Assembly: GCA_020345785.1 (NCBI GenBank)
Contig: CP070771.1
Coordinates: 1,278,397-1,285,128 of the forward strand
DNA: 6,732 nt
Direction: 5' to 3'
Source: Desulfobacterales bacterium
GTDB lineage: Bacteria; Desulfobacterota; Desulfobacteria; Desulfobacterales; JAFDCJ01
The notes under the pieces are model-generated. The model was not told the origin of the DNA. It did no database searches and worked only from the letters and a program-made list of their open reading frames with translations. Shown here piece after piece: positions 1,571 to 4,319 of this stretch. The number at the start of each line of letters is the position of its first letter. The stretch's first letter is position 1. The translations under genes and the position numbers were made by a program.

Positions 1571-1720
1571 TTACTGCAATGCAAAAGTCTGGGTCTCTCG
1601 CTGAACGTTGATCATCCATTTAACACAGAATGGTTCAATATGCAAATTGAATAGCCGACGACCCAGGGTACCATCAAAGTAAATTCTGAGCCAGTTGCAT
1701 TTGAAGTTTTTGTAAGACAT
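1571..1720 (-). CDS. Doubtful small hypothetical ORF, 49 residues
   Basis: An ATG at 1720 opens 49 codons ending in TAA at 1573-1571. The protein begins MSYKNFKCNWLRIYFDGTLG, is rich in aromatic and basic residues, and has two cysteines (residues 8 and 32). It has no signal peptide or membrane segment, and I do not recognise it. The Shine-Dalgarno is weak (GAG 6 nt upstream). The start codon lies only a few bases from the edge of the heptamer repeat at 1725, so the ORF may be a gene fragment left beside a repeat, part of a larger repeated unit, or chance. It is listed because it is the only ORF of this kind seen in the stretch. Confidence 0.18.
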   Translation of the reverse strand: MSYKNFKCNWLRIYFDGTLGRRLFNLHIEPFCVKWMINVQRETQTFALQ

Positions 1721-1724
1721 TAAA

Positions 1725-1935
1725 ATCTCAAATATCAAGCACCAAATTACAAATAAATCTCAAATCTCAATATTCAATGACCAAAACATTCACTACAATT
1801 GTAGTGTATGGCTTCCTAAACCCTGGTGAGCCGGTGATGATGTCGTTGGGTGCAATGGTAGACGGGTCATTTGTTTGGAATTTTGAATTTGGGTCATTGA
1901 AATTTGTTTGGGATTTGGTTATTGGTGCTTGGAAT
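1725..1935. repeat. Inverted pair of degenerate heptanucleotide (NNNNCAA) arrays
   Basis: The left arm reads as heptamers ending in CAA: ATCTCAA, ATATCAA, GCACCAA, ATTACAA, then a 4-nt ATAA, then ATCTCAA, ATCTCAA, TATTCAA, TGACCAA (1725-1784). The right arm on the minus strand (1935-1875) reads ATTCCAA, GCACCAA, TAACCAA, ATCCCAA, a 4-nt ACAA, ATTTCAA, TGACCCA, AATTCAA, then an 8-nt AATTCCAA. Both arms share the order of GCACCAA, the 4-nt break and the TGACC unit. Exact 10-bp matches are CAAGCACCAA (1736-1745 with 1922-1931) and TTCAATGACC (1773-1782 with 1892-1901). The centre (about 1785-1868) is not heptameric and begins with a 16-bp perfect palindrome, CACTACAATTGTAGTG (1791-1806). The arms could fold into a long imperfect cruciform or RNA hairpin. 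No transposase or target-site duplication was seen. The plus-strand ORF here appears to be an artefact of the repeat. Confidence 0.8.
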
Positions 1936-2055
1936 TTTCAGGATTTTTGTAAGGCAGCTATTTTTCTCAAAATCATTCAATTGCTTCTTTAAATGACGTG
2001 GCCCGGGCCGAGAGCCGATGATCGATGAGCGCCCGCTGTGCGCGGCGGTTCGAGC
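1936..2055. other. Short intergenic stretch downstream of the REC-HDOD gene
   Basis: AT-rich sequence switches to a GC-rich patch at about 1997-2052, which includes the 10-bp perfect palindrome GGCCCGGGCC (2000-2009) and a weak CCGC/GCGG stem near 2033-2047. The minus-strand genes end at 2056, so this is their 3' region, but no stem followed by a T-run marks a Rho-independent terminator. Confidence 0.35.
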
Positions 2056-3369
2056 TTAGATTAACTCCTCAACCGTCTTCATCTCCTCGATTACGGCCTT
2101 TTGGGTTTTGTCGATTTGATTTTTATTTAATTTCAGAAGGTGAGTCGACGCCATATTTTCAAGGTCGAGGTCAGGACCATTCTCTGCATTCAGACCGTAT
2201 CCGATTGATTTTGCCAATATATTTGCAAAATTAACAATCAGCAGCTCCTTTGTAATATTTTCTTCATTCTCATCCCGGCTGTCTTCATCTTGTATCAAAT
2301 CATCATGGTATAAGGCACTATTGATATAGCTTTCAGAATATTTCCACTTTTCAAGGAGGCGGGCGCCGAATTGGCAATGGTGTTCTTTGATGGTGTCGAT
2401 CAATTTGCGGTCGGATATGTCGCCGTTCAATTTCCCTTTACGCTCCATATCGGCAATGATCTGCAAAAGGGCCAGTTTGCCGATGTCGTGCAGCAATCCC
2501 AGAAAAAACGGATCGGCCGCCAACTGCAGCTTGATCAGATTTGCCGTAATTTCGGAAGCGTAGGCGCAAGCGATGGAGTGTTTCCACAACTTTTCAATCA
2601 AATAACGATATTTTTCGGTTTTCATCGAAAAATACTCGCGGCTTGTGAGTTCATCGACGAGTTGTTTAGTGGCGGTGATTCCGAGACGCGAGATGGCCTG
2701 CTCCAACGATTTTATTACCATAAAGCCCCTGTAGTAGGCCGAGTTGGATAAACGAATCAGTTCGGCGGAAATGGCCACATCTTTCTTGAGAAGATTCGCC
2801 AGCTGCCGGGATACGGCTCCCTTCAGGGTCATTTCACGAAATTTGGCCTGGATTCCGGGCAGCGTCGGCAGATTGATTTTTCTTCGATCGAAGACCGACG
2901 AGATGCTGTCGATAAACCGGTCGGCCGCCAAACTTGACGCATAGTCTCCTTCATCAGGCTCTTCCTGGACGCCAAGTTCCCGGATGCCGAACCTGTCCAG
3001 CTTTTTTCGGATGATATCGATATCGAACGGCTTTCCGATATAATCGTTGCAGCCGGATTGGACGCTGGCGATAATACGATCCTTATCCCGGTAGGAGGTC
3101 GCCATCAAAATTTTTGCTTCATCATCTTTTTTGACCTTGAGATTTTGTTCTACTTCCCTAATCTCGGATAATACTTCAATTCCGTCCATTTCGGGCAAAT
3201 TGATATCCAGCATAATTAAATCGAAAGGATCCTTGTTATAATGGGCTGCTCGGAACAACGCAACCGCATCTTTGCCGTTATCGACGGCATCACAATCACC
3301 AAAATTTTCCATAATCATGGTTAATTTTGTGCGGCTGACAATTTCATCATCAACGATAAGAATCTTCAC
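2056..3369 (-). CDS. Response regulator with receiver and HDOD output domain
   Basis: A 437-residue cytoplasmic signalling protein. Residues 1-125 form a CheY-like receiver: acidic pocket D7/D8, phosphoacceptor D55 in LIMLDINLPEMDG, conserved T91 and K113 in GKPFD. A linker leads to an HDOD domain, about 155-365, opening with NLPTLPGIQAKFREM and containing LSNSAYYRG (207-215), SLEQAISRLG (221-230), LWKHS (H264), GLLHDIGK (H294/D295), H330/H331 and H355. HDOD proteins are signalling relatives of HD phosphohydrolases, usually without proven catalysis; the complete receiver suggests phosphorylation-controlled output. The tail after 365 is charged and unassigned. The start is GTG at 3369, inside the GTGA overlap with the upstream gene's TGA stop. 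It is preferred because residues 1-9 form the receiver's first strand; a GGGGA sequence just upstream may act as Shine-Dalgarno. Translational coupling to the upstream gene is expected. HD-GYP was considered, but the GYP motif is absent. Confidence 0.93.
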   Translation of the reverse strand: MKILIVDDEIVSRTKLTMIMENFGDCDAVDNGKDAVALFRAAHYNKDPFDLIMLDINLPEMDGIEVLSEIREVEQNLKVKKDDEAKILMATSYRDKDRIIASVQSGCNDYIGKPFDIDIIRKKLDRFGIRELGVQEEPDEGDYASSLAADRFIDSISSVFDRRKINLPTLPGIQAKFREMTLKGAVSRQLANLLKKDVAISAELIRLSNSAYYRGFMVIKSLEQAISRLGITATKQLVDELTSREYFSMKTEKYRYLIEKLWKHSIACAYASEITANLIKLQLAADPFFLGLLHDIGKLALLQIIADMERKGKLNGDISDRKLIDTIKEHHCQFGARLLEKWKYSESYINSALYHDDLIQDEDSRDENEENITKELLIVNFANILAKSIGYGLNAENGPDLDLENMASTHLLKLNKNQIDKTQKAVIEEMKTVEELI

Positions 3370-4319
3370 GTTTTCCCCAAATTGGAATACAAACCTTTTT
3401 GTCGCAGAAATCTTTCCAGATGAGAGAATTCTTCTTCAAGCCTTTCGATTAATTTACAAATTTCTTCTGCCTTTTGGCTTTCAGCCGCTTTTTCCAGATC
3501 GGAGGCAGCCAGGGATAGTCCACGGGCTGCAAGATTGGCCGCCCCACCTTTTATGCGATGGCCCTCTGATGCAATAGCACGGTAATCGCGCCTGCAACCG
3601 GCTTCGCGGAGGACAGTGATCTGGTCTCCGACCTGGTCAATAAATTCTGCCAGAACCGCATACAAAATTTTCTTGTTGCCCATGAATTCATCGACCGCCC
3701 GATCAAGATCGAGCGGAAGATTCGTTTCACCCTGTTTTTTGACCGGCGGGTCAATTTCGGTCATTAATCTTTGATCCTGGGTGCAACTGGAAGCAGGATC
3801 GGTCCACCGGTTTATTACGGACAAAAGATGCGCCCGCTGCAGCGGTTTGCAGACACAATCATTCATCCCGGGATAGCGCTGCGGATCGAAGCCGCCTTCG
3901 GAAGCATCACCGGTCATGGCGATAATGGGAATCCTTTTGATTTCAGATTGTAGATTTCGGATTTCGGATTGAGCTTCTATCCTCTGTCCTTTTTTCTCTG
4001 TATTCTGAAATCTGTTCTCTGTTTTCTGTCCTCTGTCATCTGCTCTCAGCTTTGAGCCTTGAGCTTTGAGCTCCCACGCGCGTATTTCTCGCGTGGCCAC
4101 GTGCCCGTCCATGACCGGCATCTGGATATCCATCAGGATCAAATCATAACTTTTCTGTTTGCACGCTTCTAAGACCTGCTGCCCGTCTGCGACAATGTCA
4201 ACCTGGTAGCCGGCCTTCTCAAGGATCAGCTGTGCAATCTTCTGATTGACCTCATAGTCCTCTGCCACGAGAATACGTAAATTCTTCGGTGTATTTTTAT
4301 CTGCATCATGGTTAAACAT
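3366..4319 (-). CDS. REC-HPt phosphorelay protein with in-frame heptamer-repeat insertion
   Basis: A cytoplasmic phosphorelay protein of 317 residues from the ATG at 4319. The receiver (about 14-172) has acidic E20/D21 in VAEDYEVNQ, phosphoacceptor D64 in LILMDIQMPVMDG, T136 in IIAMTGDA and K158 in CKPL. A C-terminal HPt domain (about 200-310) carries H254 in the motif EGHRIKGGAANLAARG. Residues 84-128, between helix 3 (ATREIRAWE) and strand 4 (RIPIIAMT), are a charged low-complexity insertion encoded by tandem heptanucleotides; most receivers have only a short loop there. No histidine kinase core is present or adjacent, so the donor kinase is unlinked. REC-HPt modules are familiar as the C-terminal half of hybrid kinases, so this may descend from one; an in-frame stop at 4394-4392 blocks a longer protein. 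A TTG at 4346 would add nine residues; neither start has a strong Shine-Dalgarno, and ATG is preferred for codon type. The stop overlaps the next gene's GTG by 4 nt. Confidence 0.9.
   Translation of the reverse strand: MFNHDADKNTPKNLRILVAEDYEVNQKIAQLILEKAGYQVDIVADGQQVLEACKQKSYDLILMDIQMPVMDGHVATREIRAWELKAQGSKLRADDRGQKTENRFQNTEKKGQRIEAQSEIRNLQSEIKRIPIIAMTGDASEGGFDPQRYPGMNDCVCKPLQRAHLLSVINRWTDPASSCTQDQRLMTEIDPPVKKQGETNLPLDLDRAVDEFMGNKKILYAVLAEFIDQVGDQITVLREAGCRRDYRAIASEGHRIKGGAANLAARGLSLAASDLEKAAESQKAEEICKLIERLEEEFSHLERFLRQKGLYSNLGKT
3939..4070. repeat. Tandem degenerate heptanucleotide array inside the REC-HPt gene
   Basis: Read on the plus strand, the block divides almost wholly into 7-mers in three runs. 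Five GATTTCN-like units: GATTTCA, GATTGTA, GATTTCG, GATTTCG, GATTGAG (3939-3973). Ten NTCTGTN-like units: TTCTATC, CTCTGTC, CTTTTTT, CTCTGTA, TTCTGAA, ATCTGTT, CTCTGTT, TTCTGTC, CTCTGTC, ATCTGCT (3975-4044). Three CYTTGAG units: CTTTGAG, CCTTGAG, CTTTGAG (4050-4070). Single C and 5-nt CTCAG pieces join the runs. The encoded segment corresponds to 45 codons (3936-4070), so the frame is kept. The array has no stop in the coding frame. The composition differs from the flanking gene, consistent with local repeat expansion or insertion. It resembles in kind the short tandemly repeated heptamers described in cyanobacteria, without implying a shared origin. Confidence 0.88.

Follow-up and report, generated by a model that had tools for sequence, protein, structure and literature searches.

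A degenerate heptanucleotide array in a receiver-domain loop of a REC-HPt phosphorelay protein and its relation to dispersed repeats

The STRR sequences of cyanobacteria are dispersed heptanucleotide arrays. As far as the accessible parts of the respective papers go, dispersed heptanucleotides are also represented by the GGGAATC arrays of Xanthomonas and the GGGGA(C/T)T arrays of Nostoc (PMC4692102), and heptads have been described in Geobacter metallireducens (GGACCGG and MTYCTGA; PMC2700814) and in Beggiatoaceae (TAACTGA; PMC4679880), Calothrix being likewise named among the carriers. In these excerpts the Xanthomonas arrays are mostly intergenic, often occur as inverted pairs and vary between close species (PMC4692102), those of Geobacter are also found inside genes (PMC2700814), and the arrays are interpreted as quadruplex-forming, regulatory or binding elements. 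The repeats considered here resemble those of Xanthomonas, Nostoc and Geobacter, as portrayed in the same excerpts, in their 7-bp units, which are often degenerate, and, as regards related genomes, in their genome-wide occurrence. One such array lies within the receiver domain of a phosphorelay protein, and the following sections compare this locus with its homologues and with the dispersed arrays of related genomes.

The REC-HPt gene and its array

The window, by which we mean the whole stretch of 6,732 nucleotides that was analysed, showed the following features; a scan of the window with Rfam and for tRNA genes returned nothing.

3366..4319, minus strand: gene for a phosphorelay protein of REC-HPt type, which has 317 aa when counted from the ATG at 4319 (Pfam)
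2056..3369, minus strand: downstream REC-HDOD gene (open reading frame list; Pfam HDOD 6.5e-37, Response_reg 5e-20)
3933..4070, minus strand: insert L84-R129, coded by the repeats and placed in the helix 3-strand 4 loop (lag-7 identity, loop bounds and structure model; coordinates by arithmetic)
4048..4072, minus strand: sub-array 1, sense unit AGCTCAA-type, reading KLKAQSS-like (TRF, 7 bp x 3.6, AGCTTTG on the plus strand)
3976..4042, minus strand: sub-array 2, sense unit GACAGAG-type, reading DRGQKTE-like (TRF, 7 bp x 9.6, TCTGTCC-type on the plus strand)
3939..3970, minus strand: sub-array 3, sense unit ATCCGAA-type, reading SEIRNLQ-like (TRF covers 3953-3970, GATTTCG x 2.6 on the plus strand; the lower boundary at 3939 was placed by eye)
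1715..1955, no strand assigned: second heptad-like site, where 7-bp arrays of CAAATYC-like and GATTTGG-like units form an inverted pair between genes (arms, fold and lag-7 identity)

The REC-HPt protein matched the Pfam families Response_reg (1.9e-21) and Hpt (4.8e-10); a TTG-started version of its open reading frame extends to 4346. The GTG start of the REC-HDOD gene overlaps the end of the REC-HPt gene by 4 bp. All the characteristic residues of the receiver and the HPt domain (D64, T136, K158, D21 and H254) are present, and in an alignment of 58 sequences D64, K158 and H254 were invariant and T136 and D21 nearly so.

The region 3936-4072 had a lag-7 identity of 0.692, as against a mean of 0.310 (sd 0.039, maximum 0.477) in 5000 dinucleotide shuffles. 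The heptanucleotide array reported in the initial annotation was thus borne out, TRF resolving it into 7-bp sub-arrays of three unit types which follow one another on the sense strand in the order AGCTCAA-type, GACAGAG-type and ATCCGAA-type. It is degenerate, with a longest perfect tandem run of 18 bp. Triple-heptad CAGA matches in sub-array 2 numbered five in sense and none in antisense. Equally sound was the placement of an in-frame, repeat-derived insert in the loop that joins helix 3 to strand 4 in a receiver whose D64, T136 and K158 are intact together with H254 of the HPt domain. The loop runs from A81 to R129 and its repeat-coded portion from L84 to R129.

A structure model had been recommended as a check. 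An AlphaFold2 model built from 58 sequences (mean pLDDT 82.6) gave a confident receiver with its secondary structure in the expected order and a low-confidence insert: a predicted helix at 72-95 is followed by 36 residues lacking secondary structure, mostly of low pLDDT, and then by a strand at 132-136. According to this model, the insert lengthens helix 3, its remainder is of low confidence and the receiver fold is kept around it.

At the intergenic site the inverted arms are 1768-1786/1888-1906 and 1742-1754/1880-1892, the main arms lying about 100 nt apart. The RNA fold of this site had a z score of -4.42, and lag-7 identity was 0.425 at 1681-1800.

It might be thought surprising that no stop codon appears although each unit is read in a rotating frame. 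The used frame is indeed open, but this is unremarkable. Because 7 and 3 are coprime, each sense frame of a perfect heptamer array gives the same heptapeptide, merely shifted: three units equal seven codons, and every cyclic triplet of the unit is visited once. Provided that none of these triplets is a stop, an array of any length stays open whichever frame of its strand is read, and the sole length condition for an in-frame heptamer insert is a total divisible by three. Since the array in the window is imperfect, only the used frame is open among its six.

The loop among homologues

Homologues were taken as the best 120 of 3266 and the best 120 of 1158 matches, which together comprised 142 distinct proteins, two of them from a Desulfobacterales bacterium; the loop expression failed on 11, leaving 131 parsed. 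Comparison of loop length across homologues, another check put forward in the initial annotation, showed that it varies. In the best 120 of 3266 homologues the helix 3-strand 4 loop was the only internal site with length variation of more than three residues between core columns, and it ranged from 7 to 109 aa. The loop usually follows directly on I-R-x-W-E and directly precedes P-I-I-A-M-T, and heptad peptides such as KLKAQSS, DRGQKTE, MRNSECG and SEIRNPK were seen in many inserts.

At the DNA level 80 of 590 loci were taken, and receivers that fall outside the loop expression are absent from the counts of 57 and 80 receivers that follow. Among 57 receivers parsed in the fetched loci, 31 had loops of at most 11 residues, and in 22 of these the loop was exactly 8 residues long. 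The 80 parsed receivers included 30 inserts of at least 20 residues, and lag-7 identity was at least 0.45 in 19 of them, namely 18 from 12 genomes and that of the window; the other 11 were not heptad-like, which counts against the loop being an acceptor of heptads. Unit types differed by locus: CAGANNN in L107-L109, AGCTCAA in L081, L089 and L101, and GGAANNN in L103, L110 and L231; the array of L125, with the unit CAATCAT, is nearly perfect. The proposed acceptor loop was present in stand-alone REC-HPt proteins and in larger multi-domain proteins. A relative at E <= 1e-30 was found in only 28 of 389 Desulfobacterales genomes, with five candidates scored per genome; the family thus has a patchy, by no means universal distribution within the order.

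Two homologues are instructive with respect to the insert of the window itself. The loop of protein P0002 has 35 residues and is 14 residues, or two steps of seven, shorter than the 49 of the window. In P0004, which is 61% identical over the whole protein, all 49 loop residues align with those of the window gap-free and 31 of 49 are identical. P0004 thus shares the insert at a conservation like that of the flanks, and in this pair the insert behaves like ordinary sequence. To judge from the alignment, the window's own insert appears neither young nor fast-changing in every pair. The refuting case named in the initial annotation, a conserved loop lacking nucleotide periodicity, is approached by P0004 as far as its protein sequence goes.

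Two other kinds of insert were encountered at this loop. L106 and L115, whose flanks are 84% identical, carry a 47-residue insert with no heptad DNA (lag-7 identity 0.38 and 0.31), which is maybe an old decayed array or of another origin. Short inserts of 8 residues, STRLSSSQA- or ASPELVEG-like, were found in P0057/P0081, P0059/P0103 and P0065-like proteins; we take them to resemble another common dispersed repeat.

To what extent inserts differ between close relatives was assessed in the listed proteins, with flank identity computed over 109 residues from both sides of the loop and a cut-off of at least 85%. This was reached by 227 pairs. The inserts were at least 60% identical in 166 pairs and less than 45% identical in 55 (59 sequences; 15 disjoint pairs), most of the latter being metagenomic proteins compared as protein, where misassembly at repeats may play a part. 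Inspection of the 15 disjoint pairs by eye indicated a change of repeat type in about ten and a partial replacement or deletion in about five. Five pairs were aligned in full, and all had high identity on both sides with unrelated inserts between. Some of the proteins stand for several sequences: P0113, a protein of the Olavius algarvensis Delta 1 endosymbiont, represents 10 contigs, and P0057 and P0078 represent clusters of 18 and 16 member sequences, although the insert may vary within a cluster. The sole pair compared at the DNA level is that of loci L107 and L108, both of which lie on contigs as long as the respective genome; they are 82-85% identical around the insert and have the 5' CAGA part in common, while the 3' units differ.

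The residue three before the loop was identical in 9% of the 55 differing pairs, as against 96% of the 166 pairs with similar inserts; for the residue preceding it the values were 78% and 96%. This suggests that the replaced tract begins within the codons of helix 3; it is also possible that the residue before the loop co-adapts with the insert. On a tree of the flanks (129 of the 131 parsed proteins, with the 10 residues before the loop omitted) a minimum of 38 changes in insert type is required, compared with a mean of 59.4 for shuffled labels, a count that is approximate because types were assigned by regular expression and a few are visibly wrong. In other words, insert types do cluster on the flank tree.

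The repeats show a strand bias. In the 26 loops of at least 25 residues mean hydropathy did not differ between the used frame and the two remaining sense frames (-1.27 in either case), and it was +0.40 in the antisense frames. CAGA heptads were in the sense orientation in all six DNA loops that carry them, whereas genome-wide counts of CAGA heptads are near strand balance (e.g. 52/56 and 197/216). Among protein loops, the sense CAGA peptide occurred in 11 and an antisense match in one, which reads like another repeat. These cases are not independent events, because the loops are related. We take the sense-strand bias as a protein-level filter favouring hydrophilic peptides.

Dispersed arrays in related genomes

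A census of 2.0 contiguous Mb of genome G161 yielded 74 arrays at lag 7 and 0-5 at each of lags 2-6, 9-13 and 15. The counts were 20 at lag 8 and 21 at lag 14, the double of 7. This stretch was picked in the knowledge that two REC-HPt matches lie there, so that the census is complete, not blind, and genes were crude longest-ORF calls. By these calls just 12 of the 74 arrays have more than 90% of their length within a gene, and the remaining 62 do not. Nine of the 12 lie near protein ends or in open reading frames of at most 133 aa. Only three are well inside a long reading frame, and two of these three occupy the helix 3-strand 4 loop of receivers in multi-domain proteins, one of which, of 564 aa, has an HPt domain. 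Among 28 receivers found by HMM in the same 2.0 Mb, 26 had no insert of at least 8 residues at any position, and the two exceptions are the two heptad-array loops.

The cores of the arrays show a moderate bias towards freedom from stops. In G161, 30 of 74 cores had a strand with no stop in any of its three frames; the same held for 260 of 2000 49-mers drawn at random from intergenic DNA and for 326 of 1480 cores after shuffling.

In addition to the heptads, G161:C1 contained between 1.5 and 3.5 Mb (L128-L227) the 20 arrays of 8-bp period, many of them AATTCAGG/AATTCCTC-like. They form a dispersed family of their own.

For the pattern CAGANNN x4, eight of the 12 genomes tested had 49-413 overlapping matches each and the other four 0-3, the reversed control giving 0-6. 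CAATCAT, the loop unit of G053, occurred on nine contigs of that genome, one of which is the loop, and in none of the 11 other genomes. The AGCTCAA-type pattern in G006 matched just its own loop, which counts against a dispersed pool as its source. In 400 kb of G182 there were 11 heptad arrays, none of them more than 90% inside a gene (one was 82% inside). Only three receivers were found there, so this stretch is no test of a hotspot.

Among the matches listed for G128, inverted CAGA pairs were seen on contigs C102, C103, C116, C118, C142, C225, C229 and C241, where a plus-strand CAGA array is often followed by a minus-strand array within about 40-105 bp.

Origin and role of the insert

The explanation for these observations probably lies in a tolerant acceptor loop of REC-HPt proteins that has been repeatedly overwritten by genome-resident repeats, which are kept when they are in frame and hydrophilic. 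The insert would belong to the degenerate, dispersed heptanucleotide arrays that lie mostly between genes in related genomes. A REC-HPt lineage would have acquired a repeat-coded loop following I-R-x-W-E, and other repeat types would then have replaced the loop cassette many times. The replacement would probably have occurred by recombination or gene conversion, either with dispersed arrays or with paralogous receivers, slippage contributing just to a small extent. Selection at the protein level would retain in-frame, stop-free and hydrophilic alleles. The insert would project from the receiver, first as a prolonged helix and then as a loop of low confidence that is probably disordered, leaving the phosphorelay residues intact, and its role may be neutral to mild. 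A dispersed pool would be expected in the window's own genome as well, of which the known site is that at 1715-1955. What weighs most against this account is the metagenomic origin of most differing pairs, together with the conserved insert that the window has in common with P0004.

A simpler alternative is that of pure tolerance: arrays land anywhere, a loop on the far face survives them and nothing attracts repeats, so that the insert was inherited and then decayed or changed. This is a serious alternative but in our opinion rather less than likely. By receiver topology the loop lies away from D64, it is of low confidence in the AlphaFold2 model, the majority of arrays in G161 are outside genes, the bias is to the hydrophilic strand, and P0004 and the window have a gap-free loop in common. 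However, with 26 of 28 receivers in G161 free of inserts and two carrying one, tolerance of the fold alone leaves the restriction to one family unexplained. A single ancient insertion followed by later replacement could explain why the inserts are restricted to the REC-HPt family.

The repeats might also serve a purpose. According to one unlikely proposal, the loop of the REC-HPt receiver is, in many members of the order, a hypervariable slot reloaded from the genome's 7-base repeats, which diversifies or insulates parallel phosphorelays, the frame-independent peptides acting as a store of in-frame hydrophilic linkers. Quite doubtful, too, is a selected, diversifying specificity element, in which turnover of the repeats would serve to tune or insulate the phosphotransfer of the several REC-HPt paralogues within a genome. 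The paralogues L102, L126, L242, L243 and L244 of G156 do carry different heptads in this loop (in L234, a further paralogue, the loop has 21 residues and no heptads), and inserts are unrelated between similar orthologues. Against this stand the low-complexity content of the inserts and the docking face of receivers, which is generally known to be formed by helix 1 and the strand 5-helix 5 side and not by the helix 3-strand 4 loop.

Heptanucleotide contingency loci, which mediate phase variation, rest on long perfect arrays. The initial annotation had regarded the array as a repeat expanding in a conserved domain, in which gain or loss of units in threes would alter the loop and any other change would switch off the REC-HPt and REC-HDOD genes. 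We consider such a phase-variable or length-tunable microsatellite very improbable. Like contingency loci, the array has a unit length not divisible by 3, the two genes overlap by 4 bp, and loop lengths are uneven modulo 7, with 27 and 19 of 69 flank clusters in two classes. Some near pairs differ by exactly 7 residues (P0055/P0062 and P0124/P0126), and the P0002 loop is shorter by 14. However, among 53 disjoint nearest pairs loop length differed by at least 4 residues in 31, and the difference was a multiple of 7 in only 5 of these 31. This is near the one in seven that chance would give, and steps of three units are accordingly not how the loop mainly changes. Unlike contingency loci, moreover, the array has degenerate units, its longest perfect run being just 18 bp, and no sign of switching; unit type differs between relatives, and no frameshifted allele was seen, although searches of predicted proteins would hide one. 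Among the places listed in the genome searches, G128:C44 shows one TGA, which is absent with P0113 as query. The gap-free P0004 loop speaks against recent expansion. The initial reading as a whole is partly supported: the array and its position stand, whereas unit gain or loss with switching is not supported.

Very improbable, too, is the insertion at the loop of a mobile element that forms hairpins like the Rickettsia palindromes, since there are many unit types and a single element sequence was not seen, despite strong folds in some inserts (L081, z -4.36; L236, z -4.73), a z score of -2.55 over 143 nt for the window array (-1.97 for the loop codons alone) and inverted pairs among intergenic copies. 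Hairpins are not a general property of the inserts: the median z score was -0.35 for 30 inserts and -0.40 for 59 flanking coding pieces (p 0.65). A repeat family of the Rickettsia type in unrelated genes was likewise rejected, there being several unit types and two of the three deep-genic arrays of G161 lying in the same domain loop.

A micro-homology landing pad, with the heptad phase running upstream into the helix 3 codons, was considered as well. In the 18 nt upstream lag-7 identity was 0.348 with insert and 0.249 without (19 and 42 loci), and lag-8 identity was raised too (0.325 and 0.254). The effect is slight and such a pad is not claimed.

The overwritten loop that we favour would link two things which are usually separate, namely extragenic heptamer arrays of unknown function and hypervariable loops of signalling proteins. 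Where the cassette is the chief difference between similar orthologues, these amount to natural swap experiments, and they make both the role of the loop and the spread of the arrays testable.

Heptad arrays as such are already known. A literature search, to whose coverage most subscription journals are external, returned no report of heptad inserts in receiver domains or of such an acceptor loop, and the recurrent acceptor site is unreported in the literature found. In the available parts of the papers on known heptads neither a recurrent in-frame acceptor site nor swapping of unit type between orthologues is described. The tandem repeats of Borgs, as far as the source could be consulted, resemble those described here in lying within genes, in giving rise to disordered regions (a probable feature of the present loop) and in evolving fast; Borgs are archaeal extrachromosomal elements, and the consulted part does not mention a common acceptor site (PMC9879509). 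The palindromic elements of Rickettsia are, like the present inserts, short in-frame repeats in functional genes; in the part of the source at hand they are palindromes of about 150 bp that form families with a conserved peptide and occur in unrelated genes (PMC10969869). Unlike them, the inserts of the REC-HPt family are of several unit types and are concentrated in one loop of one domain.
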